Shown here: positions 9,573 through 35,596 of the stretch, one piece after another | Position numbering within the stretch: position 1 is the stretch's first letter | Layout of the letters: every line of letters begins with the position of its first letter | Source of the DNA: Actinomycetota bacterium | GTDB lineage: Bacteria > Actinomycetota > Acidimicrobiia > Acidimicrobiales > Ilumatobacteraceae | DNA: 64,000 nt | Assembly: GCA_016213625.1 (NCBI GenBank) | Contig: JACQZZ010000097.1 | Location: forward strand, 1 to 64,000 | Reading direction: 5' to 3' | The notes under the pieces: generated by a model | Told to the model about the DNA's origin: nothing | Database searches by the model: none | Seen by the model: the letters and a program-made list of their open reading frames with translations, nothing else | Position numbers and translations under genes: made by a program

Positions 9573-9576
9573 GTTC
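9565..9576. repeat. GAACTTAAGTTC palindrome containing two convergent stop codons
   Basis: A 12-bp perfect palindrome. The TAA of the MOSC gene (9570-9572) and the TAA of the opposite-strand gene (9569-9571) both sit in its TTAA centre. The same 12-mer recurs at 24701-24712 and, with one end missing, at 24721-24731. Confidence 0.7.
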
Positions 9577-10899: not shown

Positions 10900-10907
10900 G
10901 CCGCCTC

Positions 10908-10917
10908 ACCGTAGCGT
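10908..10917. promoter_or_regulatory. Overlapping divergent -10 boxes of glcF and nei
   Basis: The 28 nt between the two start codons hold TACGGT on the minus strand (10908-10913, 8 nt from the glcF GTG) and TAGCGT on the plus strand (10912-10917, 10 nt from the glycosylase ATG). They share two bases, so the two promoters probably exclude each other. Confidence 0.45.
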
Positions 10918-10927
10918 CACGGCTGCC

Positions 10928-12505: not shown

Positions 12506-12512
12506 CGCGTCG

Positions 12513-12518
12513 ACGCTA
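12513..12518 (-). promoter_or_regulatory. -10 box, leaderless promoter of MBL hydrolase
   Basis: TAGCGT on the minus strand, 7 nt upstream of the MBL ATG and overlapping the last codons of the kinase gene. Confidence 0.4.
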
Positions 12519-22488: not shown

Positions 22489-22496
22489 GGTGGTCA

Positions 22497-22502
22497 AGGC
22501 TA
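22497..22502 (-). promoter_or_regulatory. -10 box, leaderless promoter of hisS
   Basis: TAGCCT on the minus strand, 8 nt before GTG 22488; it decides between two candidate starts. Confidence 0.45.
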
Positions 22503-22540
22503 CCGGCCACCACCTGTCGCACCCGGCAACGTTTCGCCGG

Positions 22541-24630
22541 TCACCCGGCGACGAACCAGCCGTGCACGTCCACGATCACGTGCGATGTCGCCGAGGTGAT
22601 CGCCAGCGCAGTGCCGTCGCGGACGCCGATGAGCGCCTGGTTGGCGACCGCACGGCCACTCGGGTCGGCGTTCACCGAGGCGACGGTGGGCGTCGGCGAC
22701 CCTGACGGCCACAGCGTGGCGTACCCAGCGGTCACTCCGAGCAACTGCACCGTGGCGGCCACCGCGATGGCCCGGGGGCCGGCGAGCGGCACGGGCGTTC
22801 GACGAGCGGCGCGAATCCTGCGCCGGTCCGGCTGTCGAACGCTCTGAACGACGGGTTCGTGCGGTACAGCCCGGCCCGGGATCGCATCGCAGACGCACCG
22901 GTGAAGTAGCCGGCCACGTCGACGGTGAGATGAGCAGCCATCGACTGCAGCACGGCGATCCTGCCGTCGCGCACGGGCACGACCACGAAGCCGCCGCGGG
23001 TCTCCCCTGGCCCGTCGACGTTCAACGCGCTCGCGACCGGCGCACCACTCCCCTCGGCCATCGCCGTCAGATAGCCGGCCGAGACGGAGCGGATGGCGGT
23101 CAGGTTCACCGCCACCGCAGTTGCATCGCTGGGTACTCCGGCCTCGGTGACGTCCACCGTGGTCACGGTGCCGGCCACCGGCATCACACCCGATCCCTCT
23201 CTGGTGTCCAGCAGGCGAATCGGCTCCACGCCGGTGTAGCGGCCCGCGGTGGCGGTCGCCGAGGGCACGAATGCGCCGGTGACGTCGACGATGATGCTGC
23301 CCACCACGCCGGTCAGATCGATCTGGCCCGCGGAGCTCAGCGTGACCATGCCCGAGTTCGCGCGCACGTCGCCGGTGTTGAACGTGAGGATCGGCAGCCC
23401 ACTCGGTGCGCCCGACGGCGCCGCCGAGATGGCGCCACCCTGCGTGGGTCGCACCACGGTGACCGTGGCGGCCACCGCGCGTGCGTTGGACGGCACGCCG
23501 CACTGACCCGAGACCTGCACCCGGAAGGTGCCTGCCGCCACTCGACGGAACGGGTTGGCGATGCGCGTGTCTCCCAGCCGGCACGGCGTGAGCGGCACGA
23601 ACTGGAGCAGCGAGAGTGGAGGGGGCGTGGCCGGCAGGTATCGCCGCACGAACTCCCCCAGCGCCCACATGTTCAGGGCGTACGACGTCGCCTTGGTGTG
23701 GTTCCGCGGGTCGTCGCCCCCAAAGGCCGCCGGGTCCCCGCCGTTGACCACGTCGAGCCAGACCTGGGAGTCACCCATCGTGCTGACCAGGTCGGTGTAC
23801 GGAACCGCGGCCTGCCAATGCGGGTCGACGATGCCGTCGCGGTCGCCCACGGTGATGTAGATGGGTGCATCGCCGGCATCGTCGTACGAGGTCGGTCGCG
23901 TCGCGGCGAGGAGTGCGGGATTGCAGCTCTGCCACAGGTCGGGCGTGCCGGGGCATCCCACCAACGCGGCGACCATCGATGCATTCCCTGGCGGCAGGCC
24001 GGGTTGGTACGGGAACGTCGCCGGGTCCAGCACGCCGGCGATCGACACCACTGCGGCGGGACGCGAGGAGATGCCCGCGAGTTCTGCGGGAGGGTTCGGC
24101 GGCTCGAGGGATCCGGCCGACACGCCCAGGAGCGCGGCCAGATGCCCGCCCGACGACCACCCCATCGCGATCACCGAGTTGGGGGACACGCCGAATTCGT
24201 CTGCACGCGACTTCACCCACCGCAGCGCCAGCTTCGCGTCGTGGATCTGCGCGGGGAACGGGGCCTCGTCGGTGCCCGCGTAGCGCATGGAGAACACGGT
24301 CCACCCGCGTCGGTACAACTCCTCCACCACCGGCTGCATGCCAGGCGGTTCCTCGGTGGCGAAGTCGGCGAGGCCGCTGTCGCTGTCGGCCCAGCCGCCT
24401 CCGTGGATCCACAGGATGGCGCCGCCGTTCGGTGACGACGGCGCGTAGACGTCGAGCACCTCGTGCTCCTCCGGGCCGTAGTGCACGTTGTCGAGTGCCT
24501 TGGGAATGGGGGCCGACGGATACGTCAGCGTCTCCCCCGGGTTCGGGTCGGCCACCTGGCACGCCGACACCACGAGCGCGCACGTCGCGACGATCAACCA
24601 CCGATGTCGGAGTCGTACAGCGCGCGCCAT
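22541..24630 (-). pseudogene. Lipoprotein alpha/beta-hydrolase with three C-terminal repeats, frameshifted in the third
   Basis: Predicted secreted lipoprotein: signal sequence RWLIVATCALVVSAC with a lipobox cysteine. An alpha/beta-hydrolase of the BD-FAE/carboxylesterase type follows: oxyanion motif WIHGGGW, nucleophile MGWSSGGHLAALLG, acid in VGDRDGIVDPHW and a histidine in RNHTKATSYAL. After about residue 340 come three repeats of roughly 110 residues, each of the form RLxDTR ... IIVDVTGAF. The third (FRAFDSRTGAGFAPLVE) loses frame near 22795-22830 and would stop at 22732. In another frame the repeat continues (TPVPLAGPRAIAVAATVQ ... HVIVDVHGWFVAG) to a stop at 22541. The shift equals one missing base or an equivalent small deletion; a sequencing error cannot be excluded. 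The hydrolase domain is intact. Confidence 0.82.
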
Positions 24631-24700
24631 GACGAAATCATCGTCATTCTCCGCAGGCGATGTGACCGATTCCGCCGGTCATCCGTCACCCCATACACCC

Positions 24701-24731
24701 GAACTTAAGTTCCGACGTCGGAACTTAAGTT
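24701..24731. repeat. 30-bp perfect palindrome with two AACTTAAGTT copies
   Basis: Positions 24702-24731 are perfectly self-complementary: AACTTAAGTT, then the 10-bp centre CCGACGTCGG, then AACTTAAGTT. Position 24701 adds the G that completes GAACTTAAGTTC at 24701-24712. It lies between the esterase gene and the left end of the mobile element, in chromosomal sequence that once followed rel. It could be a bidirectional terminator or a protein-binding site. Confidence 0.7.
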
Positions 24732-24743
24732 TGCGTGCGTGGG

Positions 24744-24782
24744 GTCAGCCGCCTTTGCCGGGGACCAGGCGGTAGGCGTCGT
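24744..24782. repeat. attL: left copy of 39-bp direct repeat (displaced rel 3' end)
   Basis: 38 of 39 bases match 32822-32860; the only difference is t24754 against c32832. Read on the minus strand it encodes the last residues of Rel (DAYRLVPGKGG, then TGA), with AAA in place of AAG for lysine, a silent change. It has no upstream coding sequence, so it is the original chromosomal end of rel left behind by integration. Confidence 0.88.
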
Positions 24783-24889
24783 CTAGTGAGGTGCCACCTG
24801 TATGCGGGAGGCTGATCCACCTGGTCAAACGCGACCGCAGGGTGTGCACCTATTCGCCTGGTGCTGGCGTCCCTCTCGGCGGTTCGGTG

Positions 24890-25225
24890 CTAGTCGTCCA
24901 AACCCACGTCGGTCGCCTCGTCGTCCTCCGTCGAGGTCATAAACCAGCCGGTCTGAGCCCACGGCCTGGAACGGTCCCCGAATCCAGGTCGCCCGTCGGA
25001 GTACATCACGTAGTCGCCGCTCTGGATCGTGGCGAATGAACGAGCGAGGCGGCTGAGACGCTCCCCCTGGTCCGTCGGCGTCGCAGCCTCCGAGGCGATC
25101 GCGCGCAGCACAGCCAGCAGTGCTTCGTGGAGAGCACTGTCCAACTCGGCTCGCTTCGCCTCGAATTCAGCCGCCCTTCCTTCGTCGAGGTCGTCCGCAG
25201 GCGTGAACGAGGGCCAATCCGTCAT
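24890..25225 (-). CDS. Hypothetical protein of the mobile element
   Basis: 111-residue acidic protein I do not recognise. The N-terminal half is helical (DEGRAAEFEAKRAELDSALHEALLAVLRAIAS), the middle has SFATIQSGDYVMYSDGRPGFG, and the C-terminus is very acidic (STEDDEATDVGLDD). ATG 25225 is preferred over an upstream in-frame start because TAGACT lies 7 nt before it. It is the gene nearest attL and lies 54 nt downstream of the adaptor-like gene on the same strand. A virion or packaging accessory role is possible from position only. Confidence 0.62.
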   Translation of the reverse strand: MTDWPSFTPADDLDEGRAAEFEAKRAELDSALHEALLAVLRAIASEAATPTDQGERLSRLARSFATIQSGDYVMYSDGRPGFGDRSRPWAQTGWFMTSTEDDEATDVGLDD

Positions 25226-25232
25226 GGCCGTG

Positions 25233-25238
25233 AGTCTA
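25233..25238 (-). promoter_or_regulatory. -10 box of the attL-proximal gene
   Basis: TAGACT on the minus strand, 7 nt upstream of ATG 25225. Confidence 0.35.
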
Positions 25239-25279
25239 GGACTGGTGGCCACACCTCCTGCCCGAGAGGGATCAGGCCG

Positions 25280-25645
25280 TCAAACCGGGATGCGGCGCCA
25301 GTGTTGGTCGTTGTCGTCCAACAGGTCGCAGAACCTCAGGTCGTCGGTCTCCTCCACCGCCTCCATGATGGCGTCCAGCACCTTCACGCTGGCGTGTAGG
25401 GCGCGCCGGTAGGGGCGCAGCAGCATGGCCTCCGTGGCCGTCAGGGGCACCGCCGTGCCACCCTCGGCGTACATGACGCTGTAGGCGCCTACCGTCTGCG
25501 ACGCGGTGCCAGGCGCGGCCTGCGCCATGCGCTCAGCGAGCACCGTCACCAGGTCGGCCACCGCAGCGGGCTGCGGGTCAGGCAGCCGCGGGTACTCCGA
25601 ATGCAGCGCGGCCAGCGCAATGGCGATCCAATCGGAAATAGACAT
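25280..25645 (-). CDS. Putative phage head-tail adaptor
   Basis: 121 residues. The central stretch TVGAYSVMYAEGGTAVPLTATE followed by AMLLRPYRR resembles the (S/T)xGdYSVtYA...LTxxExxxLrrYRR pattern of small head-tail connector/adaptor proteins in actinobacteriophages; this is pattern recognition, not a search result. The N-terminus is helical (SDWIAIALAALHSEYPRLP). Divergent from the protease-like gene: TACCCT lies 8 nt upstream of its ATG (25654-25659). If it is an adaptor, it is odd that it is on the opposite strand from the capsid gene. Confidence 0.58.
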   Translation of the reverse strand: MSISDWIAIALAALHSEYPRLPDPQPAAVADLVTVLAERMAQAAPGTASQTVGAYSVMYAEGGTAVPLTATEAMLLRPYRRALHASVKVLDAIMEAVEETDDLRFCDLLDDNDQHWRRIPV

Positions 25646-25653
25646 ACCCCCCG

Positions 25654-25699
25654 AGGGTACATCCAGGCGCTACGGACACGGCTGGACCACAACTAGCCT
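25654..25699. promoter_or_regulatory. Divergent leaderless promoters inside the mobile element
   Basis: The 61 nt between two divergent starts contain TACCCT on the minus strand (25654-25659, 8 nt from ATG 25645) and TAGCCT on the plus strand (25694-25699, 7 nt from ATG 25707). Confidence 0.42.
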
Positions 25700-25706
25700 G
25701 CGCCGC

Positions 25707-26510
25707 ATGCCGGACAAGATCACCAAGCGCGTCATCGTCGCGACCACCCACCCAATGCGCGCCTACGGCGGAGTCCGCTTCTCTCGTGAGGCCCTCGCCG
25801 GCCTGGCCGACAGTCTGAACAAGGGCAAGACCCCGTGGCACCTGGAGCATGACGCGCTTCAGCCGCTGGACGCCGAGGTCATCGCGGCAGGGCTCAACGA
25901 ACGCGACGACGGCGAGGCGGAGGTGTGGGCCGAACTGCGAGTCGACGGTGCCCAGTGGGGTGCCTACGAGCGCGCGGTGGTGGAGGCCGGCGCTCCAGGT
26001 GGCATCTCGGTGAGTGCTACGTCAACCATCAGCCGACATCCCGGCCCACCTGGGGCGCCAGTTGGCGTCGAGGTGGTGGTCGCAGCGGACGCAGCGCACT
26101 TCTCAGACGAGGAGATCGACGCCGCCGCTGCGGAGATCGCCCACAACGTCCCGGCAAGGTCAGCGGAACTGTTTCAGTTCTCCCATCAACCCCCGGCGCT
26201 CATCGTGTTGGAATTCGTATTAGACGGCGGAGTTCAGGTGGCGTGGGGCGTCCTCGGCAGTTACGTGTACGACGCGCTTCGCAAACTCAGGAAGGACTCG
26301 CCTGCTGCGGTGCAACTCGTCGTGGAGGAGCCGGAGCGCGTGGTGAAGGCGGTCATCCCGCATGGGACCGACCAGGCCACGGTGGACAAGGCGCTGGCCA
26401 GTTGGGAGCGTGTCGCGGCCCAGGGTCGAGGCGTCTACTCGTACGACGAGGCGGAGGACTGGCGGTTCTCACACCCGGACCCACGGAATGAGAAGCCTGC
26501 TGACGACTAG
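25707..26510 (+). CDS. Putative prohead-protease-like protein
   Basis: 267 residues. Position directly before the capsid gene and the pattern of the first 110 residues suggest an HK97-type (S78-like) maturation protease. PWHLEHDALQPLDAEVIAAG has the His48-Asp49 pair and the following strand expected of wnHd...lG. EAEVWAELRVDGAQWGA matches the beta-strand region, and APGGISVSATSTI (Ser101/Ser103) is a candidate nucleophile like the lSiGf motif. The C-terminal part (QVAWGVLGSYVYDALRKLRK, VVEEPERVVKAVIPHG) is not explained by a protease fold and could be a fused scaffold or other domain. Start from TAGCCT 7 nt upstream. Confidence 0.6.
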   Translation: MPDKITKRVIVATTHPMRAYGGVRFSREALAGLADSLNKGKTPWHLEHDALQPLDAEVIAAGLNERDDGEAEVWAELRVDGAQWGAYERAVVEAGAPGGISVSATSTISRHPGPPGAPVGVEVVVAADAAHFSDEEIDAAAAEIAHNVPARSAELFQFSHQPPALIVLEFVLDGGVQVAWGVLGSYVYDALRKLRKDSPAAVQLVVEEPERVVKAVIPHGTDQATVDKALASWERVAAQGRGVYSYDEAEDWRFSHPDPRNEKPADD

Positions 26511-26731
26511 CCCTGCGGGCTATCATTGCTAATGAGCCGGTGGCTGTGCCCCGGTGGTAGGTGCGCCAAGCGCACTGAGGGCCTGTGGCCAACCGACCCG
26601 GCAGGGCTGTGCCCGCCAGTCGTCACAAGAGCAGCCCGCTGCACCCACGCCCCCGGGTGCTGTGTGAGCGCCAGGCCCGGCAAACCGCTGCCACCCCGTC
26701 AACCCGCTCTCACTCCCCAAGGAGAACAACC
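26511..26731 (+). other. 221-nt untranslated leader of the capsid gene
   Basis: Stretch between the protease-like stop and the capsid GTG. It holds several GC-rich complementary segments but no convincing coding frame; an in-frame extension of the capsid gene back to 26585 is Arg/Pro/His-rich without protein character. A ribosome-binding site GGAG at 26721-26724 ends it. It may hold a promoter, a structured 5' UTR or a small RNA. Confidence 0.4.
26721..26724 (+). promoter_or_regulatory. Ribosome-binding site of capsid gene
   Basis: GGAG (context AAGGAGAAC) 7 nt before GTG 26732. It fixes the start and contrasts with the leaderless genes around it. Confidence 0.7.
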
Positions 26732-27544
26732 GTGGCACTCTCCCGTGCATCCTTCGATGGCATCACCGTTCCCGACGAGGTTCGTGACTCCATCCTGTCC
26801 ACCCTCGTCGGTGGCGCCCCCTTCGGCCGCAGCCTGCCAGTGCTCCGCACCGTCCGTGGCACGATCGCGTTCCCCATCGCCGCCCCGTCCGGTCAGGGCT
26901 GGGTCGCTGAGAACCAGCCGCTCCCGACCGTCACGCTGAACGACGACTCGTACGTCATCGGCGTGGCCAAGATCGCCGGCCTGATCGCCATGTCGAACGA
27001 ATCGATGACCGACTCCGTGCTCGACCAGGAAGCCGCCGTGGGCGCGGTCCTCAAGGACACCCTCAGCGCCGACCTCGATGACGGCCTCCTCAACGGCACC
27101 GGCATCGCCCCCATCCCCGCAGGCGTCATCGGTCGCGCCACCAGCACCACCGGCACGTTCACCGACATGCGCTCCGGTGTCATCGCGAGCATCGGTGAAC
27201 TCATCGACGCGGGCGCCGACCCCAGCGCCATCAAGGTGTACGCCAACGGTCTCACGGTCGCCCCCGAACTGGCCCGCGAGGGCACCGCTGGCCCGATCTA
27301 CACCAAAGGCGTGGACGGCCTGCCGTACGGTGCGCAGATCGTCCCGGCGCAGAAGATGGGCGCCGCCGAAGTGCTCGTCGTGGACACCACCCGCTGCTGG
27401 CTCGTTACCCACGACGACTTTGAGGTCGCCGTGTCCGGCGAGGCAGGCTTCGCCAACGACCAGACGCTCCTGCGCATCAAGGGCCGCTTCAACGTGGCGA
27501 CTCCGGTGCCCGGCAAGGCGCTCCGCACCTTCACGGTGTCGTGA
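26732..27544 (+). CDS. HK97-fold major capsid protein
   Basis: Structural shell protein of 270 residues. The family pattern is clear: GQGWVAENQPLPTVTLNDDS (P-domain/E-loop region), VAKIAGLIAMSNESMTDS (the lvpvSnEll motif), LDDGLLNGTGIAPIPAGV (nGtG..p.Gi) and the C-terminal VDTTRCWLVTHDDFEVAVSGEAGFANDQTLLRIKGRFNV in segments typical of HK97 capsids. Short N-terminus with no long delta domain, so scaffolding may be separate. GTG 26732 has a strong RBS. A 12-bp stem terminator follows the stop immediately. A capsid gene without portal or terminase points to a satellite that builds its own (perhaps smaller) shell. Confidence 0.85.
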   Translation: MALSRASFDGITVPDEVRDSILSTLVGGAPFGRSLPVLRTVRGTIAFPIAAPSGQGWVAENQPLPTVTLNDDSYVIGVAKIAGLIAMSNESMTDSVLDQEAAVGAVLKDTLSADLDDGLLNGTGIAPIPAGVIGRATSTTGTFTDMRSGVIASIGELIDAGADPSAIKVYANGLTVAPELAREGTAGPIYTKGVDGLPYGAQIVPAQKMGAAEVLVVDTTRCWLVTHDDFEVAVSGEAGFANDQTLLRIKGRFNVATPVPGKALRTFTVS

Positions 27545-27546
27545 TC

Positions 27547-27578
27547 GCGGGCCGGGGGCGCTCACTCCCCCGGCCCGC
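27547..27578 (+). terminator. Terminator hairpin after capsid gene
   Basis: Perfect 12-bp stem (GCGGGCCGGGGG pairing with CCCCCGGCCCGC) with an 8-nt loop, starting 3 nt after the capsid stop. No T-run follows, as is common in high-GC actinobacteria. Confidence 0.75.
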
Positions 27579-27674
27579 ACCTCCTCCACTGACGGGTGGA
27601 AGTAGGGGCCTCCAGCGGACTTCCGAACAGGGTCGCCGCTGGGGGCCTCTGCGCGTCCGGGCACCGCAACGCGA

Positions 27675-27703
27675 GCAGCCCCCGGCACTCGGCCTGGGGC
27701 TGC
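27675..27703 (-). terminator. Possible terminator after zinc-ribbon gene
   Basis: 8-bp stem GCAGCCCC / GGGGCTGC with a 13-nt loop, 27 nt beyond the zinc-ribbon stop on the minus strand. With the capsid terminator it separates the two convergent transcripts. Confidence 0.4.
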
Positions 27704-27729
27704 ACACTTGTGCGCTCAGCGGCACGTGG

Positions 27730-28131
27730 TCACTGCTGTTTGCGCGGCTTCTTCGCCTGTGCTGCCGCGGTCGTCTTCAGCAGCGCCTCCGCCTCCTCGA
27801 TGGCCTGCGCGGCAGCCCGCTTGGCCTGCACCGTGGGCGACACGTTGTCCCGACATTTACGGCACCGCGTGGAGCGCAATTCCGGACCGCTGATCGTGGG
27901 GAACGAGTTCACCGGCAAGGTCATCAGGCAGATGCGGCACTGGTGGTAGCCGTTCGTGTCCTCCGCGTGAAACGAGGGCGCCGGAGCGAGGGAAGACGAG
28001 CCCTTAGGGCCGGCAGCGGACAGCGACTTCGCCTTCGGTGCAGGCGCCTCCTTCGCGGGGGCCTTCTTGGTGGTTGCGGTCTTGTTGTTGGAGGCTGCGG
28101 TGCCCTTGGCGGGCTTCGGTGAGGTTGTCAT
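27730..28131 (-). CDS. Zinc-ribbon protein with Lys/Ala-rich tails
   Basis: 133 residues. A four-cysteine zinc site is visible (Cys65-x2-Cys68 and Cys90-x2-Cys93 in YHQCRICLMTLP ... RSTRCRKCRDN). The N-terminal 50 residues are Lys/Ala/Pro/Ser-rich like histone tails (KPAKG, KTATTKKAPAKEAPAPKAK) and the C-terminus is again basic and helical. Such small phage zinc-ribbon proteins are often annotated as HNH-like or DNA-binding, but the catalytic HNH histidines are not evident. Likely DNA-binding. It is last on the minus-strand side before the capsid gene and has an inverted repeat just upstream of its start. Confidence 0.62.
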   Translation of the reverse strand: MTTSPKPAKGTAASNNKTATTKKAPAKEAPAPKAKSLSAAGPKGSSSLAPAPSFHAEDTNGYHQCRICLMTLPVNSFPTISGPELRSTRCRKCRDNVSPTVQAKRAAAQAIEEAEALLKTTAAAQAKKPRKQQ

Positions 28132-28136
28132 GCCCG

Positions 28137-28164
28137 AATCGAATGCACGAACATCCGTTCGATT
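28137..28164 (-). promoter_or_regulatory. Inverted repeat upstream of zinc-ribbon gene, possible operator
   Basis: AATCGAA (28137-28143) and TTCGATT (28158-28164) form a 7-bp inverted repeat with 14 nt between, starting 6 nt upstream of the ATG. A dimeric regulator could bind here. Confidence 0.35.
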
Positions 28165-28193
28165 GCAAGGCCATAAGCCGCTCTATGGGCGTG

Positions 28194-29000
28194 CTACGGC
28201 GATTGCGCGGCCCCGATCGTGAAGTCCAGTCCCTCGAGTACGCCATCAAATCCCTCGCAGTGCGCGAGTTCAGGTGTCACCCCGCGCCGCGCTTGGTAGC
28301 GGCAGTGAATGAGCGTCACGTACATGTGCATGCCGTGCATGAGGCGGCCAAACTCGTCCATCGCCAGCGCGACGCGATCTCCAACGGCGAGACCGAATCC
28401 TGGGCACTTGTCGATGAAACGTTGGTCGGCGTTACCTGCCCGGTGCGCCCACACGTTCCGAACTTGCTGGGCGTCAAAGATCGCCTTCCGCACCCGGGCG
28501 GGCACTGGCCCGGACAAGCCGGCCAGTTCAAGCAGCGGCTCAAACCGCGTCACGCCCTGTTCTAGCGGGGACTTGAGTTCTCGACGCCACTCGCTGAGAA
28601 GAGTCTTCGCAGCGTCGTCAGGAGATTCAAGAAGTGTGGCAGCAGGGACGCGAACGCGCCGGAACGCGTCTGCACCTACCGACGCTGGATTGGCGACGAT
28701 GGAGGCAACGACAAGATCTTCGATGAAGGTCTCCAGCAAACTCCAGAGCACCATCAGCATGCTCGAGTGGACGATCGGGTATCCCGCATCGATCTCTGTC
28801 TTCGCCATCGCGGCGATCTTGTCGGCGCGATGTTGGCGGAAGTCCTCAACCTTGAGGAGTCGCAAGACTTCCTTGTCTCTACAGAGACTCGTATAGCCCT
28901 CGTGGGTGAGGTGAACCAGAGACTCGATGTGCCCAGACCCCTCAGCCCAGTTCATGAAGATCGGGCGAAGGTTGTCTGGTCCAACTTGAGCGTTGCTCAT
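28194..29000 (-). CDS. HEPN-motif protein coupled to Mrr endonuclease
   Basis: 268 residues, strongly helical, no signal peptide. Residues 181-186 (RNVWAH) match the R-x4-6-H motif of HEPN domains, with helices before (LSEWRRELKSPLEQGV, ARVRKAIFDAQQV) and after, as in RiboL-PSP-HEPN and related families. Many HEPN proteins are RNases in toxin-antitoxin or abortive-infection systems; others are inactive partners. A hydrophobic helix MLMVLWSLLETFIEDLVVASIV (81-102; shown in parts: MLMVLWSLLETF) is part of the bundle. The ATG overlaps the Mrr stop by 4 bp (ATGA), so the two proteins are probably made together and may act together. Function inferred, not shown. Confidence 0.66.
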   Translation of the reverse strand: MSNAQVGPDNLRPIFMNWAEGSGHIESLVHLTHEGYTSLCRDKEVLRLLKVEDFRQHRADKIAAMAKTEIDAGYPIVHSSMLMVLWSLLETFIEDLVVASIVANPASVGADAFRRVRVPAATLLESPDDAAKTLLSEWRRELKSPLEQGVTRFEPLLELAGLSGPVPARVRKAIFDAQQVRNVWAHRAGNADQRFIDKCPGFGLAVGDRVALAMDEFGRLMHGMHMYVTLIHCRYQARRGVTPELAHCEGFDGVLEGLDFTIGAAQSP

Positions 29001-29914
29001 CTGGCGCCCTCCGAGTCGAAGCGGTCGAACCAGTCTTCGTTGACGACGGGTTGAATGGTGAGGCCGATCTCCTGGGCGCGAACGAGGTCACACAGGCGTT
29101 CTCCGTCGATGAGGTCAACACGGGGCGTCACGGTGGTGGCCGCCTTGCGAGCCGGCGCCGTGAAGCGAGCGAGAGTGATGAACACTGCCCGCTCCGCGCC
29201 GGCAGCAGCAGCGTCCCGCTGGAAGAGCGCAACCGTGTCACGCCCCACACTCGATGCAGGGTCGAAGCGCTTGGCCTGAACTGCCACCGTCGCAGAAAGC
29301 ACCTCGCTCAAGGGAGCAGTCCCGATCCCGTCGATGCCCTCGTCTCCGGTGCCACCCACACGTGTCAGGTGCAGCCCGTAGCGGCGCAGCAGGTACATGC
29401 AGAACTCCTCGAACCCGGTGGGCGTCAGCCTGTGAAGTCGGGCTAGCAGGCGCTCACGCCAAGCATCGGACTCATCGCCCGCCTCCTCCATGGCAGCCTC
29501 ACGCGCCACCTGCTCCTCATCAGCCGGGGCTGCGACCTCACCGGCCTTCCGTGGCTTGGCAGGCCGCGCTGAACGAACCTGCCGGTCCATGTCAGCCAGC
29601 CGGGTACGCGCTGCATCGTCCGGCATCGCCAGCACGTCTCGCCCCACCGGGGTCAGCAGGAAGAGCCCACGCTTGGGACTCTCCAGCGCGCCACCCAGTT
29701 TGCAGTAGGAGCGCGCCCAGTCCATCCGATCCAGCAACACCGACAGCGGCCTGTTCGGATACTGGATGGCCACCTGCTCATCCGTGTAGCCCTCTGCCTC
29801 CACCACCTGGTTGCTGATCTCACGTCCTGTTGCGGACCCGCCCAGTGCCTCGATGGCCCTCAGGACGGGCAACATCAGATCGTTGTAACGCGGCAGGGTG
29901 TCATGGCTAGCCAT
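28997..29914 (-). CDS. Mrr-type restriction endonuclease
   Basis: 305 residues. N-terminal winged-helix Mrr_N domain (LMLPVLRAIEALGG ... LFLLTPVGRDVL), an acidic/charged linker (about 115-150), and a C-terminal PD-(D/E)xK Mrr catalytic domain: TGFEEFCMYLLRRYG, GGTGDEGIDGIG (catalytic Asp195) and VAVQAKRFDP (Gln-Ala-Lys 213-215). Mrr enzymes cut modified DNA, so it can act against phages with modified genomes. No methyltransferase is nearby, consistent with a modification-dependent enzyme. ATG 29914 chosen; an in-frame start at 29941 is possible. Translationally coupled to the HEPN-motif gene. Confidence 0.86.
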   Translation of the reverse strand: MASHDTLPRYNDLMLPVLRAIEALGGSATGREISNQVVEAEGYTDEQVAIQYPNRPLSVLLDRMDWARSYCKLGGALESPKRGLFLLTPVGRDVLAMPDDAARTRLADMDRQVRSARPAKPRKAGEVAAPADEEQVAREAAMEEAGDESDAWRERLLARLHRLTPTGFEEFCMYLLRRYGLHLTRVGGTGDEGIDGIGTAPLSEVLSATVAVQAKRFDPASSVGRDTVALFQRDAAAAGAERAVFITLARFTAPARKAATTVTPRVDLIDGERLCDLVRAQEIGLTIQPVVNEDWFDRFDSEGAR

Positions 29915-29966
29915 CCGCAGAGTCTTGCCCAGCGGCACCACGCATCACGACCATCGCAACCATCGT

Positions 29967-29996
29967 GGTGGGGTACCACCCCCTCCCCCCGGGGGG
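29967..29996. other. GC-rich inverted repeats between rep operon and Mrr gene
   Basis: A 5-bp stem (GGTGG / CCACC, loop of 4) followed by CCCCCCGGGGGG at 29985-29996. It lies in the 162-nt gap and could end the upstream operon or hold the Mrr promoter; no clear -10 box was found. Confidence 0.3.
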
Positions 29997-30076
29997 CCTC
30001 CTGGCCAGAGGGGACTGCCGACACGTGCGCGGCCGAGTTAGCCGCAACGTACGCGATGGTTACGACAGCGCGGACC

Positions 30077-30337
30077 CTAGGCATCGTCCAGCAGGTCCTC
30101 CACCAACAGCGCCAGCGCCGTTTCACGTGCCATCGCCAGGCTGTGGAACACGGTGCAGTCCGGGTCCCCGTCGACGCGCAGGCCACGCTCCCGGGTGAGC
30201 CGCGCCACCTCCTCGCTCTGCGCGTCCCACTCATCGCCCAGGGGGACACGCAGGATGACGCGCCCGAAGTGCACCACCCACCCGGCGCTCTTGGAGAGCA
30301 CGAGCACCCCAGGCTTCATCGTCGGATCACCAGTCAC
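30077..30337 (-). CDS. Small hypothetical protein of the mobile element
   Basis: 86 residues from a GTG start that overlaps the stop of the preceding replication-type gene by 4 bp (GTGA); an internal ATG at 30319 is the alternative. Reads as a small alpha/beta protein (GVLVLSKSAGWVVHFGRVILRVPLG, then two helices ending ALALLVEDLLDDA). Not recognised. Being last in a four-gene coupled chain with the initiator, it may help replication or copy control; that is inference only. Confidence 0.65.
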   Translation of the reverse strand: MTGDPTMKPGVLVLSKSAGWVVHFGRVILRVPLGDEWDAQSEEVARLTRERGLRVDGDPDCTVFHSLAMARETALALLVEDLLDDA

Positions 30338-31140
30338 AGGTCCTCCTCGGTCCAGATGTCTTCGTCCTCCTCCAGCAGCCCTGCATTCACCGCTCGGGGT
30401 GCCAGGTGGTCCAGTGCCGTGTCCAGCGCCGACCACGGATTGTCGATGTGGTGCGGCAGGTACTCGTCCCGGAGCAGCGCGTCCCGCAGGGGGCGCCAGA
30501 GGTCGTCCGCCGCCGCGTGCGCGTCCTCCCACTGCCAGCCGATCCCCAGGTCCACCATGCGCCTCGCGAGATGATCCACAGCCCTACGAGCGAGTGCGTC
30601 CACCTCTGCGGCGGGCTTGCCCGTCGCGCTCACCGCAGGTGTAGGCGTAGGCACCACCTGGACGGTCTCCTGGTAGTCCTCCTGGTTCTGTGTACCGCGC
30701 ACCTCTGCGCGGTTCGATTCGCGCAGGTCTGCGCGGTTCGGTTCGCGCACCTCTGCACGGTTGCCCGCCATGGCCTCCGCCGAGTAAGCGCGCACTTCTG
30801 CGCGGTTACTCACCAAGTCCCACAGGGCCGCCGTGGGCCTGTAGTGACAGACCTTGCGTCCGTGGAAGAAGTGCTGTTCAACCTCGAACAGTCCCAGCCG
30901 AACCAGCGACTGACGCGCCCGGCGCACCTGGGTCGGTGCGAGCCGCCGGCGCGTCCAGCCCTCGTCGGTGTCCTCCAGAGCGAGCCACCGGCCGTCGTGG
31001 CGGAGCGCCCCGAAGGAGGGGTACTCGACCCACAGTCGGGCGAGCAGCGAGATGACGATGGCATCACGCATCGACCACTCCTGGCCTTCAGGCATGGCCC
31101 AGGGGTAGAGCGTGAAGCCCGGCCCCAGGTCGGCGCTCAC
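30334..31140 (-). CDS. Probable replication initiator / winged-helix DNA-binding protein
   Basis: 268 residues from GTG 31140. The N-terminal half looks like a winged-helix domain (SMRDAIVISLLARLWVEY, RRRLAPTQVRRARQSLVRLGLFEVEQHFF, VCHYRPT), as in phage replication proteins and some plasmid initiators. The middle has four degenerate repeats NRAEVRE/NRADLRE (about residues 112-149) encoded by iteron-like DNA repeats. The C-terminal half is helical and acidic (ending LLEEDEDIWTEEDL), suited to recruit a helicase or loader. The GTG overlaps the stop of a 43-residue gene by 4 bp. Assignment rests on layout and iterons, not on a recognised family. Confidence 0.58.
   Translation of the reverse strand: MSADLGPGFTLYPWAMPEGQEWSMRDAIVISLLARLWVEYPSFGALRHDGRWLALEDTDEGWTRRRLAPTQVRRARQSLVRLGLFEVEQHFFHGRKVCHYRPTAALWDLVSNRAEVRAYSAEAMAGNRAEVREPNRADLRESNRAEVRGTQNQEDYQETVQVVPTPTPAVSATGKPAAEVDALARRAVDHLARRMVDLGIGWQWEDAHAAADDLWRPLRDALLRDEYLPHHIDNPWSALDTALDHLAPRAVNAGLLEEDEDIWTEEDL
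30696..30807. repeat. Four iteron-like 19-bp repeats, candidate replication origin
   Basis: Copies at 30696-30714, 30720-30738, 30744-30762 and 30789-30807, based on CGCGCACCTCTGCGCGGTT with one to three changes each. Start-to-start spacing is 24, 24 and 45 bp, all multiples of three, so they encode NRAEVR-type repeats in the overlapping gene. Regular direct repeats within or beside an initiator gene are the usual form of an iteron origin. Confidence 0.62.
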
Positions 31141-31268
31141 CAGGCCACCCACCAGATGGTGACGAGCCAGTACGCTTGCGCACGACGACGTTCCGCGGCG
31201 GCAACTGCGGTCAGGTCCTGGTGGCCCGCCTCCCACTCGGGGGCGGGCCACTTCGCGTCACGGGACAT
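31137..31268 (-). CDS. 43-residue protein with C-terminal hydrophobic helix
   Basis: Begins MSRDAKWPAPEWEAGHQDL, continues with a basic stretch (AAAERRRAQ) and ends AYWLVTIWWVAW, a short hydrophobic segment that could enter a membrane. Support for its reality comes from both ends: its ATG overlaps the previous gene's stop by one base (TGATG), and its own TGA overlaps the next gene's GTG by 4 bp (GTGA). This gives an unbroken coupled chain. Function unknown; a toxin-like or regulatory micro-protein is possible. Confidence 0.6.
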   Translation of the reverse strand: MSRDAKWPAPEWEAGHQDLTAVAAAERRRAQAYWLVTIWWVAW

Positions 31269-31543
31269 CACCTGTCCCCCACTCGATCCACACGGCGACC
31301 ACCGCTCCTCGCCTGCCGAGCCTTCACGCCCTTGGCAGACAGTTCGAGGTACCAGGCACGCCTCAGGTTCTCAGCCGCCTTGCGGCGGGTCTCCTCGTCG
31401 GCCTGCGCCATGTGTGGCGCCAGCCGAGCCAGCCAGTACTCCAGCCCCGTGGGGCTGAGGTTGCGACCGGGTGCCGTCCGGGCGGCTCGGTCAGGGGTGT
31501 TGGCCCACGACCTGTTGGCCGCGACCCTGTGTTGCATCGTCAC
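31268..31543 (-). CDS. Small basic protein at the head of the rep operon
   Basis: 91 residues, rich in Arg and Ala: GRNLSPTGLEYWLARLAPHMA then DEETRRKAAENLRRAWYLELSAKGVKARQA. Not recognised; the helical basic C-terminal half could bind nucleic acid. GTG 31543 is preceded by a strong Shine-Dalgarno GAGGAGG with 7 nt spacing. First of four overlapping genes leading to the putative initiator. Confidence 0.65.
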   Translation of the reverse strand: MTMQHRVAANRSWANTPDRAARTAPGRNLSPTGLEYWLARLAPHMAQADEETRRKAAENLRRAWYLELSAKGVKARQARSGGRRVDRVGDR

Positions 31544-31712
31544 GATGCGTCCTCCTCAATCCTGGGGCGCGCTGCTGATGGCGCCTTGGGCATCGAAAGG
31601 AGCTGGTCGTGATGCGGTACATGATTGGTCCTTGGGGGGTAGTTCCGGACTTACGGCGGCACCCCAACCTTACACGTGTGCGGTGACGAATTGCAGGGGT
31701 GTAACTCCCCGC

Positions 31713-31726
31713 CTAGGCATGCCTAG
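31713..31726. promoter_or_regulatory. 14-bp palindrome, possible operator
   Basis: CTAGGCATGCCTAG is perfectly self-complementary and sits between the integrase stop and the promoter side of the rep operon, a place where a repressor or excisionase might bind. Confidence 0.4.
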
Positions 31727-31741
31727 CAGGACTTATGCGTC
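31725..31741 (+). repeat. 17-bp direct repeat, copy 1 (integrase 3' side)
   Basis: AGCAGGACTTATGCGTC matches 32808-32824 in 16 of 17 positions. The two copies bracket the integrase gene in the same orientation, as integrase arm-type sites might. Confidence 0.5.
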
Positions 31742-31756
31742 GTCAGCCTGGCGCCG

Positions 31757-32674
31757 TCACAGGCCCTGACCGATGCCCAACCGTGCCGCCTCAGCCTGCG
31801 CGCGTCCGGCCGCGGCCGACCTGCCGTAGCGGTCGATCATCGCCCGGTTGGACCACCCAGCGGACGCCATCAGGCTCCCCTCGGTGCCGCCCTTCGACAA
31901 CCATGAGTGGGCGAAGAGGTGCCGCCACGCATGTGGATTCGCTCGCTCGACACCGGCCCACGCGGCACGACGTTGGAGCATCTGCTGGATGCCGGCCCCG
32001 CCGAACGCCTGCTCCTTGCCGAGCCAGAGAGCCTCGAGATGGGCGAGCCGGTGCAACGCCCTTGCGCGGAGGTAGCGCCGGAGCGCCAGGGCAGTGTGGT
32101 CGGGGAAGTAGACCACGCGACCCTTGCCACCCTTGCCGCGCACGATGTGGGCGGTCTGCGCCTTCAGGTCGACATCTGCCAGCGACAGCCCGGCACACTC
32201 GCCGCGCCGCATCCCGGTACCCAGCAGCATGCGGATGACCGCCTCGTCACGGATGCCGTAGAAGTCACGCTCACACGTAGCCAGGATCGCCTTCACCTGG
32301 TCATCCTGGAGCACCGGTACCACGGGCATCGACCGACGTGGCTTCTCCACAAGTGCGGTCGGATCAGTTTCAGCGAGCCCTTCCTGGCAGCACCACTTCC
32401 AGAAGGCCTGTAGACCGCCATGGCGGGTGATCGCGGTGCTGTCGCTCGTGCGGGCCAGCACGTCCGCCAGGTAGCCACGCACCTCCCCCGCCGTCACGTC
32501 ATCGGTGGTCGCATCAGGCCTTCCGTGCTCGGCGAGCCAGGTGGTCAACTGGGCAACGGCAGTGCCGTACACCTTTCGAGTCGCGGGCGACTTGTTCGCC
32601 GCCCGCATGGCCAGGTCCCACTCGTCCGCAGCGTCGGCAAGTAGCGCCCCTTGGGGCATGTTGGTCTTGGGCAT
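31757..32674 (-). CDS. Tyrosine recombinase / integrase
   Basis: Site-specific recombinase of 305 residues, expected to integrate and excise the element at the rel 3' end. N-terminal SAM-like core-binding domain (SPATRKVYGTAVAQLTTWL, AITRHGGLQAFWKWCC) and C-terminal catalytic domain with all key residues: Arg156 in GTGMRRGECAGL, Lys in RGKGGKGRVVYF, His248-x2-Arg251 in NPHAWRHLFAH, and nucleophile Tyr283 in GWSNRAMIDRYGR. ATG 32674 has a strong RBS (AGGAGGGG, 7 nt away). Similar in layout to XerC/XerD and short phage integrases. The gene is 148 nt from attR, the usual position for an integrase. Confidence 0.93.
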   Translation of the reverse strand: MPKTNMPQGALLADAADEWDLAMRAANKSPATRKVYGTAVAQLTTWLAEHGRPDATTDDVTAGEVRGYLADVLARTSDSTAITRHGGLQAFWKWCCQEGLAETDPTALVEKPRRSMPVVPVLQDDQVKAILATCERDFYGIRDEAVIRMLLGTGMRRGECAGLSLADVDLKAQTAHIVRGKGGKGRVVYFPDHTALALRRYLRARALHRLAHLEALWLGKEQAFGGAGIQQMLQRRAAWAGVERANPHAWRHLFAHSWLSKGGTEGSLMASAGWSNRAMIDRYGRSAAAGRAQAEAARLGIGQGL

Positions 32675-32807
32675 GGGAGCACCCCTCCTGTGTTCAGCGC
32701 CCCGGGGCACCGCTACCAACGGCCCGGGGCGCACGTATGTTCGATCCCCAGCCTACCGTATGGTGCACCCCTGTGGGTATGCGCGCCAGCATGGTGCAAG
32801 TACCCTG

Positions 32808-32824
32808 AGCAGGGCTTATGCGTC
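32808..32824 (+). repeat. 17-bp direct repeat, copy 2 (overlaps edge of attR)
   Basis: AGCAGGGCTTATGCGTC, one mismatch to 31725-31741. Its last three bases overlap the attR repeat. Confidence 0.5.
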
Positions 32825-32860
32825 AGCCGCCCTTGCCGGGGACCAGGCGGTAGGCGTCGT
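32822..32860. repeat. attR: right copy of 39-bp direct repeat, forms current rel 3' end
   Basis: Matches 24744-24782 at 38 of 39 positions. It supplies the last 11 codons and stop of the intact rel gene, so integration does not change the Rel protein. Confidence 0.88.
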
Positions 32861-35045
32861 ACACGGAGTCGATCTGCTTGATGGTGCGCAGGACGGACTC
32901 GAGGTGCGACGGGTCGCCCATCTCGAACTCGAAGCGCATCTTCGCCACTCGATCGGAGCCCGTGTGTGTGCTGCACGCCACGATGTTGACGTGCTGCTCG
33001 CTGAGCGAGTTGGCGACGTCGCGCAGCAGCTTCGACCGGTCGAGCGCGACGACTTCCACGGCGGCACGGAACAACGCCTTCGACTGGTCGCCGTCCCACT
33101 CCACCTCCACGAGGCGAGCGGCCTGCTCGTTCATCAGACTGCCGGCGTTGGCACAGTCGGCGCGGTGCACGGACACGCCGCGTCCACGGGTGACGAAGCC
33201 GATGATCTCGTCGCCGGGTACGGGCGTGCAGCACCGCGAGAGGCGCACCAGCACGTCGTCGATGCCCTCCACGTGCACGCCGGCGGTGTTGCGCGGCTTG
33301 CGATCGGTGGCGCTGTGCAACGCCGGCGCGGCGGGAAGCTGCTCGCTGTCGGAATCGTGATGCAGTCGCCGAGCCACCTTGCCGGCCACCGAACGCGCCG
33401 ACACGTGGCCCTCGCCGATGGCGGCGAGCATCGAGTCGAGATCGGAGTACGAGGCGGCTTCGATCTCTGCCGCGAGCGCGTCGCTGGCCCACAGGCGCTG
33501 CACGGGCAGGCCCTCCCGACGGAACTCCTTCGTGAGCTCGTCGCGGCCGGCTTCCACCATGTCGTCGCGACGCTCGCGAGAGAACCACTGCTTGATCTTG
33601 TTGCGCGCACGCGGCGACTCGACGAACTGCAACCAGTCGCGCGTGGGGCCCGCAGACTCGACCTTCGACGTGAAGATCTCGCAGGTGTCGCCGCTCTTCA
33701 TCTGATGGTGCAGCGGCACGAGGCGTCCGTTGACCTTGGCACCGATGCACGCGTGGCCCACCTCGGTGTGCACCGCGTAGGCGAAGTCGACCGTCGTCGA
33801 GCCGACGGGCAACGTGACGACCTTGCCCTTGGGGGTGAACACGAACACCTCGTCCTGCTCGAGGTCGGTCTTCAGGCTCTCCATGAACGCGGCGGGGTCG
33901 CTGACCTCTGCCTGCCAGTCGATGATGCGATTCAGCCAGTCGATCTCGGTGCTGGCGCCCACGCCGTCCTTGTAGGCCCAGTGCGCCGCCACGCCCCATT
34001 CGGCACGCTGGTGCATCTCGCGAGTGCGGATCTGCACCTCCACCACCTTGCCGCCCGGCCCGATGACCGTGGTGTGCAAGCTCTGATAGAGGTTGAACTT
34101 CGGCATCGCGATGTAGTCCTTGAACCGACCCACGACCGGCTTGTACCGACCATGGATGCAGCCGAGGGCCGCGTAGCAGTCCTTCACCGAATCGACGATG
34201 ACTCGGATGGCGATGAGGTCGAAGATGTCGTCGAACTCGCGCCCCTTCTGCACCATCTTCTCGTAGATGCTCCACAGGTGCTTGCCGCGGCCGGTGACCT
34301 CGGCCGAGATGTTCAACTCCTGCAGGCGTCCCCCGAACTCGGCGATCGCCTTTGCCAGGTACAGCTCTCGCTCGGGCGATCGCCCCGACACCAGATGGTC
34401 CAGTTCGGCGTAGCGCTTCGGGTACAGCGAGGCGAACGACAGGTCTTCGAGCTGCTGCTTGAGTTCCTGCATGCCCAGCCGGTGCGCGAGCGGGGCGTAG
34501 ATCTCCAACGTCTCGTGCGCGATGCGCTGCTGCTTCTCGGACGGCATCGCGGCGATGGTGCGCATGTTGTGCAGACGGTCGGCCAACTTGATGATGAGCA
34601 CGCGCAGGTCTCGCGCCATGGCCACCAACATCTTGCGCATGGTGGCGGCCTGCTGCGCCTCCTTGGAGTCGAACTGCAGGCGCTCGAGCTTGGTGACGCC
34701 GTCGACGATCTGCGCGACCTCCGCCCCGAACGCGGTCTCGACGTCGGCGATGGTGATCTCGGTGTCCTCCACCGCGTCGTGCAACAGCGCGGCGGCGAGG
34801 GAGATCTCATCGAGCCCCAGGTCGGCCACGATGCGGGCCACGGCCAGCGGATGGTTGATGTAGCTCTCGCCACTGCTGCGCAACTGGTGGCGGTGCGCCT
34901 CCTTGGCCGTCTCGTAGGCGCGGTTGATGAGCGCCACCGACGCCTTCGGGTGCCGCCGCCTGTAGGCCGTGAGCAGCGGTGTCAGCTCCTCGGCCGTCGC
35001 GTTCTGGTGGCGACGCCAGGGCAGAACACGATCGACCGCTGCCAT
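32823..35045 (-). CDS. rel: Bifunctional (p)ppGpp synthetase/hydrolase Rel
   Basis: Stringent-response enzyme making and degrading (p)ppGpp, 740 residues. HD hydrolase domain with SYINHPLAVA (His65) and LLHDAVEDTE (His89-Asp90); synthetase domain with GRFKDYIAMPK and NLYQSLHTTV, the RxKD form found in bifunctional Rel enzymes; TGS domain (DEVFVFTPKGKVVTLPVGST); zinc-finger/CC domain (LSRCCTPVPGDEIIGFVTRG); C-terminal ACT domain. The final codons lie inside attR of the mobile element; the protein sequence is unaffected. Its ATG overlaps the apt stop by one base (TGATG). Confidence 0.97.
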   Translation of the reverse strand: MAAVDRVLPWRRHQNATAEELTPLLTAYRRRHPKASVALINRAYETAKEAHRHQLRSSGESYINHPLAVARIVADLGLDEISLAAALLHDAVEDTEITIADVETAFGAEVAQIVDGVTKLERLQFDSKEAQQAATMRKMLVAMARDLRVLIIKLADRLHNMRTIAAMPSEKQQRIAHETLEIYAPLAHRLGMQELKQQLEDLSFASLYPKRYAELDHLVSGRSPERELYLAKAIAEFGGRLQELNISAEVTGRGKHLWSIYEKMVQKGREFDDIFDLIAIRVIVDSVKDCYAALGCIHGRYKPVVGRFKDYIAMPKFNLYQSLHTTVIGPGGKVVEVQIRTREMHQRAEWGVAAHWAYKDGVGASTEIDWLNRIIDWQAEVSDPAAFMESLKTDLEQDEVFVFTPKGKVVTLPVGSTTVDFAYAVHTEVGHACIGAKVNGRLVPLHHQMKSGDTCEIFTSKVESAGPTRDWLQFVESPRARNKIKQWFSRERRDDMVEAGRDELTKEFRREGLPVQRLWASDALAAEIEAASYSDLDSMLAAIGEGHVSARSVAGKVARRLHHDSDSEQLPAAPALHSATDRKPRNTAGVHVEGIDDVLVRLSRCCTPVPGDEIIGFVTRGRGVSVHRADCANAGSLMNEQAARLVEVEWDGDQSKALFRAAVEVVALDRSKLLRDVANSLSEQHVNIVACSTHTGSDRVAKMRFEFEMGDPSHLESVLRTIKQIDSVYDAYRLVPGKGG

Positions 35046-35572
35046 CAGTAGAGCGCCAGGCTCTCGACCAGGTGGCCCTTCAGCCGCTCACGACCGCCGA
35101 GCTCGGTGAGTTCGAGCAGGAACCCGAGGCCGGCGACCTGACCACCGAGCGCCTCGACCAGGCGGCAGGTGGCCTCGGCCGTGCCACCCGTGGCGAGCAC
35201 GTCGTCGATGATGAGGATGCGCTCGCCGGGGTGAATCGCGTCGCGGTGGATCTCGAGCTTGTCGCGCCCGTACTCCAGTTGGTACTCCTCGCGCACGACG
35301 GCCCACGGCAACTTGCCGGCCTTTCGCACCGGGATGAACGACGCGCCGAGGCAGTACGCCACCGGTGCGGCGACGATGAAGCCGCGAGCCTCCATGCCGA
35401 GCACACGATCGACCTGCACTCCGGCAAAGCGTTCGACGAGCTCGTCGATACTGCGCTTGAAACCGTGCTCGTCGCCGAGCAGCGGCGTGATGTCGCGGAA
35501 GGTGACTCCGGCCTCGGGGTAGTCGGGGATGTCGCGGATCAGTTCGGTGATCCAATGACCGTTGGACGCCAT
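35045..35572 (-). CDS. apt: Adenine phosphoribosyltransferase
   Basis: Purine salvage enzyme forming AMP from adenine and PRPP, 175 residues, the normal length. PRPP-binding motif [16 protein letters not shown], the [12 protein letters not shown]-terminal signature, [16 protein letters not shown] and the flexible loop [20 protein letters not shown] 35572 lies 6 nt after TACCCT. Placed between secF and rel as in most actinobacteria; coupled to rel by a one-base stop/start overlap. Confidence 0.96.
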
Positions 35573-35578
35573 GACCAG

Positions 35579-35584
35579 AGGGTA
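35579..35584 (-). promoter_or_regulatory. -10 box, leaderless promoter of apt-rel
   Basis: TACCCT on the minus strand, 6 nt before the apt ATG; it probably gives an apt-rel transcript separate from secDF. Confidence 0.45.
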
Positions 35585-35596
35585 CCGGTTGGGTTC

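Follow-up and report, generated by a model that had tools for sequence, protein, structure and literature searches.

Organization of the locus

We analysed 64,000 nucleotides of contig JACQZZ010000097.1 (assembly GCA_016213625.1), which originate from an actinomycetote of the family Ilumatobacteraceae, and refer to this whole stretch as the window. At the 3′ end of rel the window carries an inserted element that is bounded by two copies of a 39-bp direct repeat and that includes genes for an integrase and a phage capsid protein (Table 1). A preliminary description had proposed an 8.1-kb block between two copies of the rel 3′ end, and indeed the start-to-start spacing of the copies gives a unit of 8,078 bp. 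The copies are 38/39 identical with one silent difference, and since the translation of either of them yields the rel tail DAYRLVPGKGG-stop, rel was left whole by the insertion. The longest exact direct repeat in positions 23500-34500 measures 28 nt, compared to 12-16 nt in Markov simulations (n = 30), and a chance origin was therefore rejected. A tRNA attachment site was rejected as well, because the sole tRNA of the window is located at position 50767.

Table 1 Features of the window element and dimensions of nine further elements with a capsid gene and defined ends. Positions without prefix refer to the window; G and L numbers are our handles for genomes and loci.
Feature	Position	Strand	Evidence or attachment site
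attL, distal attachment copy	24744-24782	-	38/39 identical to attR
111-aa protein	24890-25225	-	gene prediction
Head-tail adaptor-like protein, 121 aa	25280-25645	-	phrog_137 7.6e-5, phrog_442 1.1e-4
267-aa protein upstream of capsid gene	25707-26510	+	hhalign to six S78-type proteases, E 0.012 to 0.056
Major capsid protein, 270 aa	26732-27544	+	PF05065 1.8e-17, TIGR01554 4.7e-15, phrog_10 6e-12
133-aa protein, two CxxC pairs	27730-28131	-	weak PHROG matches, E 0.017 or worse
268-aa protein, 4-bp overlap with Mrr gene	28194-29000	-	single RX4H motif RNVWAH
Mrr-type (type IV-like) restriction endonuclease, 314 aa	28997-29941	-	PF04471 4.9e-24, PF14338 1.3e-16, PADLOC mREase_IV 3.9e-35
86-aa protein	30077-30337	-	gene prediction; no family match
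Replication initiator candidate, 272 aa	30334-31152	-	iteron-like repeats within gene; no family match of weight
Four 24-bp iteron-like repeats	30696-30812		repeat family D1; Tandem Repeats Finder score 106 for three of them
91-aa integration-module protein, SWANTPDRxART motif	31268-31543	-	homologues: 43% identical beside G073 integrase, shorter match in L081, also in L146 and L148
Tyrosine integrase, 305 aa	31757-32674	-	PF00589 3.4e-24, phrog_1 1.2e-37
attR, rel-proximal attachment copy, last rel codons and stop	32822-32860	-	repeat search, translation
Element L004, 7,640 bp	L004:3182-10852		31-bp repeat; rnpB
Element L055, 8,184 bp	L055:5407-13622		32-bp repeat; rnpB
Element L011, 8,597 bp			48-bp repeat; tRNA-Asn
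Element L081, 9,694 bp			48-bp repeat; tRNA-Thr
Element L012, 10,194 bp			imperfect repeat; tRNA-Leu
Element L065, 9,004 bp			19-bp repeat
Element L083, 8,770 bp			18-bp repeat
Element L162, 8,075 bp			17-bp repeat
Element L010, 7,908 bp			exact 123-bp terminal repeat of contig

On the basis of their family matches, three gene products are firmly predicted to be a tyrosine integrase, an HK97-type major capsid protein and an Mrr-type nuclease. The first two had been named in the preliminary description and are borne out, whereas of the restriction/HEPN pair that it had proposed the restriction half stands and the second half depends on a single RX4H motif: the 268-aa protein had no family match in Pfam, PHROGs, NCBIfam and PADLOC scans and is, judged from this motif, possibly a HEPN protein. 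For the capsid protein, five PDB capsid sequences (including chains 8ec8 and 8eco) match a profile of three capsids with a best E-value of 2.5e-6, and an N-terminal delta domain is not apparent.

The proposed adaptor-like and initiator proteins remain plausible. The 121-aa protein plausibly represents a head-tail adaptor, with a weak match (E 1) to Mycobacterium phage adaptors in phage records. The 272-aa protein is without a weighty family match in Pfam, PHROGs and NCBIfam; it is a plausible replication initiator, and the iteron-like repeats within its gene are a possible origin, as iterons are located inside some phage initiator genes. A protein of similar appearance, the probable initiator of an element in G932 (L162:8351-9169, HTH_36), shows a repeated SSGRAG in the middle of the protein, comparable to the NRAEVR repeats of the window protein. 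The 133-aa protein reached E 0.047 with an HNH PHROG, a weak match, and had no Pfam match, and the 91-aa protein might be an excisionase or a regulator.

The claim of a protease-like protein did not hold up to the same extent. No Pfam, PHROGs or NCBIfam match was obtained for the 267-aa protein. Aligned by hhalign to six prohead-protease sequences from other loci, it has a His and a Ser in register and a score of 23.75, which exceeds 60/60 shuffles (best 22.39) and ten other element proteins. However, its E-value of 0.012 is weak, because an unrelated 111-aa element protein reached E 0.02 (score 19.99, over 11 columns). The predicted structure is uninformative (mean pLDDT, the predicted local distance difference test score, of 38). 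Relatives of this protein were absent from IMG/VR, phage records gave one match at E 0.4, and among 397 genomes of the order E ≤ 0.01 was reached in 10, i.e. G000 itself and nine weak partial matches. A prohead protease is therefore a possible, weak assignment.

The rel 3′ end as an attachment site

To find empty sites, the rel C-terminus was used as query against 41 genomes, with matches in 38 and 30 loci returned. Twelve loci (L086-L097) of the 14 other genomes of the same genus were examined; G198 gave no match and G190 no locus. In 11 of these 12 loci rel is followed by hisS without an element, and the remaining locus, L090, stops at a contig end. The start of hisS is no more than about 90 nt away from the att match in eight loci, as read by eye, and is reached after 0.3-0.6 kb in three further ones (L116, L117, L118), for which all att matches of at least 27/39 were listed (one each), while for the other same-genus loci only the best match was considered. 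The insertion is thus clean, as had been stated, yet the surrounding gene order is not entirely the conserved one: an esterase-like gene (about 22732-24597) sits between the distal att copy and hisS and represents a second local difference. This gene was not found by tblastn in the rel loci of 29 relatives, whose sequence beyond rel covers no more than about 1.5 kb.

The use of the rel stop region had been called unusual, and whereas the site itself is real, it is common to another element of the same family. In G073, a member of another genus, an integrase with 55% identity to that of the window (48% by tblastn) starts about 60 bp from rel. The genes that follow it encode the 43%-identical counterpart of the 91-aa protein, a helicase resembling DnaB, a product of 615 aa that weakly matches head proteins, a tape-measure-like protein and a large terminase (TerL; phrog_9 3.9e-40). 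The rel-hisS interval amounts to about 19 kb in this genome, the prophage-like genes were noted at positions 3559-16108 of locus L115 (G073:C4:106000-125000), and a second attachment copy was not found at the rel locus. A third related integrase, 42% identical to that of the window, belongs to a block of the same family (L146, G105:C12:36000-55900, block 7956-16648) together with a capsid protein (PF05065 8.5e-33), a portal (PF04860 2.5e-77), a protease (PF04586 5.1e-24), an HNH protein (PF14279 2.8e-9), TerL (PF03354 4.5e-13) and an ATPase; inspection by eye revealed no tail gene in the 3 kb that follow. Capsid-forming phage-inducible chromosomal islands (cf-PICIs) are described as encoding portal, connectors, both terminase subunits and HNH (PMC10690885), and from its gene content L146 looks like such an element. 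One integration module thus serves an element with a capsid gene but no detected portal or TerL, a cf-PICI-like element and a prophage-like element, and the rel 3′ end emerges as a protein-gene attachment site common to different kinds of element.

These two relatives also speak for a rival explanation, according to which the window element is the remnant of a decaying prophage or cf-PICI that lost its portal, terminase and tail genes, with the capsid gene left over. The family contains both a prophage-like element at the same rel site and a cf-PICI-like element that has portal and TerL genes.

Lack of detected portal, terminase, tail and lysis genes

The preliminary description had listed no portal, terminase, tail or lysis gene, and this was confirmed. 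PHROGs scans of 101 of the 102 six-frame open reading frames (ORFs) of at least 50 aa gave no portal, terminase or tail match at E ≤ 0.01; the families matched were integrase, head protein, adaptor and two of unknown function. Loci retrieved with PF04860 and PF03354 served to build local profiles for portal and TerL, and these matched none of the 102 ORFs at E < 10. Lysis genes of a tailed prophage were not detected in the element by Pfam and PHROGs. In three control blocks, two of which had been used in building the profiles (L146 had not), the weakest of six values was 3e-67. PF04860, PF03354 and the local profiles do not span every portal and terminase type, and further families were covered through PHROGs for the window element. 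From these scans, a prophage with hidden packaging genes was rejected, and the lack of any trace of portal or TerL also argues against a remnant.

Further elements with a capsid gene and without detected packaging genes

PF05065 was found at 47 places in 37/395 genomes of the class, and after leaving out two second gene pieces and three unfetched places, 42 loci including the window constituted the survey set. A portal or TerL was present on the stretch in 23/42 loci, whereas 19/42 had none according to PF04860, PF03354 or the local profiles; we call such elements shell-only. Six of these 19 (the window, L012, L055, L065, L081 and L083) have both ends set by direct repeats, and the other 13 run into contig ends, are fragmentary or could not be resolved. 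Together with L004, L011, L010 and L162, this results in ten shell-only elements with defined ends, i.e. nine besides the window element (7.6-10.2 kb; Table 1), all with capsid and integrase genes; the local portal and TerL profiles had no match at E < 10 in the six-frame ORFs of all ten. The suggestion that the gene set of the window element is unusual was therefore not upheld, and published Mycobacterium elements are described alike. L010 ends in an exact 123-bp repeat, as expected of a closed circle, and is therefore probably circular, with 7,908 bp. The rnpB placements were made by Rfam (RF00010) and those in tRNA genes by ARAGORN; L004 and L055, which come from different families, share the gene for RNase P RNA, rnpB, as insertion site, each sitting in its 3′ end.

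For eight of the other elements, 88 proteins were scanned, with the 25 commonest of 136 PHROGs and of 41 Pfam families listed, and 55 of these proteins were rescanned, with 25 of 74 listed. The absence of packaging genes from the other elements therefore rests on the portal and TerL profiles, together with PF04860 and PF03354 for seven of the nine. Among the matches listed, replication genes are recognisable in most of the nine (Prim-Pol, AAA_25, DnaB and D5, among others; HTH_36 in L162), HTH_17 occurs in 5/88 proteins and the prohead protease family PF04586 in 2/88, and L011 has, by eye and without Pfam support, a scaffold-like protein beside the capsid gene. Genes were called with a home-made predictor, which missed genes in L069, L012 and others.

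The comparison bears on two further explanations of a shell without portal or terminase. First, the capsid gene could serve defence, with a lone capsid protein poisoning the assembly of infecting phages alongside the Mrr nuclease, while the element moves by other means. An Mrr-type nuclease in an element without detected packaging genes is in line with such a role, as is the capsid homologue Ccm of SaPIbov5, a satellite protein able to alter helper assembly (PMC8569155). However, tblastn (1e-3) found no Mrr homologue in eight other shell-only elements (L162 not included), which nevertheless kept the capsid gene, and the PF04586 proteins as well as the scaffold-like protein of L011 suit building rather than poisoning. 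We regard interference as the sole role of the capsid gene as improbable, although it is compatible with a satellite and does not exclude one. Second, PF05065 proteins can act as encapsulin-like shells, and a phage capsid turned into a compartment that is unrelated to DNA transfer would account for a shell without portal or terminase. Against this, the capsid gene resides inside an integrase-bearing element in 10/10 elements with defined ends, PF05065 and TIGR01554 were the only families matched, with no encapsulin family among them, and no repeated cargo enzyme was seen by eye beside the capsid gene in the other elements. An encapsulin-like compartment is thus highly unlikely.

A capsid clade of narrow element size

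Relatives of the window capsid are few and comprise G194 of the same genus (44% identity; L004), one IMG/VR contig (44%; L010) and G932 from outside the class (E 1.8e-50; L162). L004 matches JACQZX010000035.1, an Actinomycetota metagenome-assembled genome from groundwater. Phage records held no close relatives, the four with capsid matches showing 27-28% identity over about half of the protein, and plasmids held none; IMG/VR gave none for the L055 and L011 capsids and two large contigs (L153-L154) for the L065 capsid.

The window, L004, L010 and L162 form one capsid clade (SH-aLRT 100; 100/100 for the first three), in which 4/4 members found are shell-only, with sizes of 8,078, 7,640, 7,908 and 8,075 bp, respectively. 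Their integrases differ: tblastn with the window integrase at 1e-3 matched nothing in L004 or L010, L004 has a different tyrosine integrase next to rnpB, the L010 recombinase is of the serine type (PF07508 and PF00239 in the scanned protein set) and that of L162 is a tyrosine integrase (PF00589 7.4e-17). For the L004/L010 pair, the rates of nonsynonymous (dN) and synonymous (dS) substitution were 0.20 and 1.03 (NG86), from which we conclude that the capsid gene is under constraint in these elements.

The six elements with other capsids measure 8,184-10,194 bp, and the size difference between them and the clade had an exact two-sided p of 0.0095, in a comparison made after the sizes were seen. 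A published size model assigns 8.14 kb to a triangulation number (T) of about 2.33 and 11.78 kb (8.1-17.1) to T=3 (PMC7762592), so that, with one copy packed per head, the unit lengths would be compatible with a T below 4.

With regard to a remnant, a careful tree of 40 capsids scatters shell-only capsids among those with portal or TerL, as repeated loss would: the label requires eight changes, at least five of them forced, and is no more clustered than in shuffles (229/500 as low). A quick tree with two extra rows requires six changes, at least three forced, and shows a clustered label (7/500 shuffles as low). Due to this difference the number of independent shell-only origins is unsure; both trees label L058 as shell-only although its ends are not defined. 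On the other side, the capsid reading frames are uninterrupted, with constraint between L004 and L010, the size range within the clade is narrow, and all four clade members found are shell-only while their integrases differ. Taken together, we consider a remnant unlikely, though less so than the two explanations of the capsid gene considered above.

A helper-dependent satellite as the probable explanation

Judged from its gene content, the window element is probably a helper-dependent integrative phage satellite of the candidate-PICI type, which would make its own shell and borrow portal, terminase and tail. We favour this reading because of the att repeat, the empty sites and the finding that another genus has a related integrase next to the 3′ end of rel; because of the nine further capsid elements without a portal or TerL match, the probable L010 circle and the cf-PICI-like element in the family; and because of the uniformly shell-only capsid clade with its narrow sizes and constrained capsid gene, with SaPIbov5 Ccm as the closest precedent that has been tested. 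The satellite-like character and the comparison with phiRv1 and phiRv2 made in the preliminary description were thus upheld, in view of integrase, capsid and att repeats.

In such a satellite, infection by a helper phage would trigger excision, and replication would proceed from an origin inside the initiator gene. The element would then make its own capsid protein, which may form the whole shell or enter that of the helper; a whole shell or a mixture with the helper's protein may apply because no delta domain is apparent in the capsid. Shell assembly would start on the helper's portal, the helper's terminase would package a single unit of about 8 kb into the small head, and the tails would likewise come from the helper. 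The Mrr gene and its 268-aa partner are probably a cargo pair by which the host is shielded from competing phages.

Several points weigh against this reading. Helper, excision, particle and transfer were not observed, and an AlpA-type excisionase was not recognised in it by Pfam and PHROGs scans. For L083, L162 and L065, the ends are defined by short repeats of 18, 17 and 19 bp, respectively. The constraint on the capsid gene was calculated for the relatives L004 and L010, with a dS near 1 that is close to saturation, and pairs including the window capsid are too diverged (dN 0.55-0.61, dS 0.92-1.00). Finally, PF04860 and PF03354 are absent genome-wide from the window's own assembly and from the shell-only hosts G194, G510, G307, G419, G355, G663 and G754, which implies that a helper phage would either arrive from outside or carry portal and terminase genes of other families.

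Candidate PICIs are defined by an integrase and a capsid gene, with phiRv1 and phiRv2 among them, and some include terminase and scaffold genes (PMC10654092). The window element has an integrase, a major capsid protein and attL/attR repeats. By description, phiRv1 and phiRv2 of Mycobacterium (9.3 and 10.8 kb) resemble it in having a tyrosine or serine integrase, a capsid and direct repeats at the ends, and it differs from them in host, rel 3′ end site and Mrr cargo. In phiBN42_1, the five genes with a given function encode integrase, excisionase, primase, prohead protease and capsid (PMC3986857). The integrase-plus-capsid kind of element is therefore already published in Mycobacterium, and the point of interest here is its recurrence together with the narrow sizes. 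As they are described, cf-PICIs share an own capsid, an integrase and the lack of tail genes with the window element, in which portal and large terminase were not detected and no significant HNH family match was obtained. MulchRoom and MiniFlayer, Streptomyces phage satellites, likewise belong to Actinomycetota and have own small capsids, but according to their description encode terminases and a portal, without a recognised primase (PMC10690885). The elements of PMC12324425 are described there without an HK97 capsid.

SaPIbov5 is not known to encode a portal or large terminase of its own. Its Ccm is a capsid-protein homologue that redirects helper assembly and occupies the pentamer positions of small shells made of helper protein (PMC8569155). 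Like the window capsid it is a satellite-encoded homologue, and it works with the helper's portal; unlike it, Ccm is staphylococcal, has a delta domain and, as reported there, gives no capsids without the helper's capsid protein. Among titles and abstract openings of open-licence PMC articles, in a search that did not include rel by name, no treatment of shell-only elements in this host class was found.

Shell-only elements may include candidates for the small HK97 capsids that are so far missing, formed on a helper's portal. We tentatively suggest, as a conjecture that is more doubtful than the satellite reading itself, a shell-only satellite lineage in which the capsid gene is an inherited virion module that sets genome length, with small HK97 heads (T below 4) depending on the helper's portal and terminase. 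Elements with a shell but no portal or packaging motor of their own raise the question of how a foreign capsid protein could assemble on a helper's portal and be filled, and recurrence, narrow sizes in one capsid clade and one probable circle make this question of assembly testable.

Additional observations at the attachment site and in other loci

A 58-bp palindrome (24688-24745; arms of 29 nt, 86% complementary) abuts the distal att copy on the chromosome side. Similar short stretches were seen by eye at 31727-31746, just past the 3′ end of the integrase gene, and at 32815-32831 at the rel-proximal att copy; they are possible integrase arm or core-like sites. Rfam over 20000-36000 gave no match at the gathering score, and a promoter scan of the window element had no match.

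A tape-measure-like gene was seen by eye in L163 (G889), L164 (G899), L165 (G977), L068 (G636) and L148 (G104). The first four also have a capsid gene, and the portal and TerL profiles were unmatched where scanned (L148 was not scanned). Scaffold-like and small-terminase-like genes were recognised by eye in L163, and Pfam did not name the L163 tape measure as such. WhiB-like regulator genes are located near the capsid gene in 4/8 other shell-only elements (L004:7210, L011:11203, L065:10919, L083:8769); PF02467 was found in four proteins among the matches listed, and the WhiB-like gene of L083 was assigned by eye.

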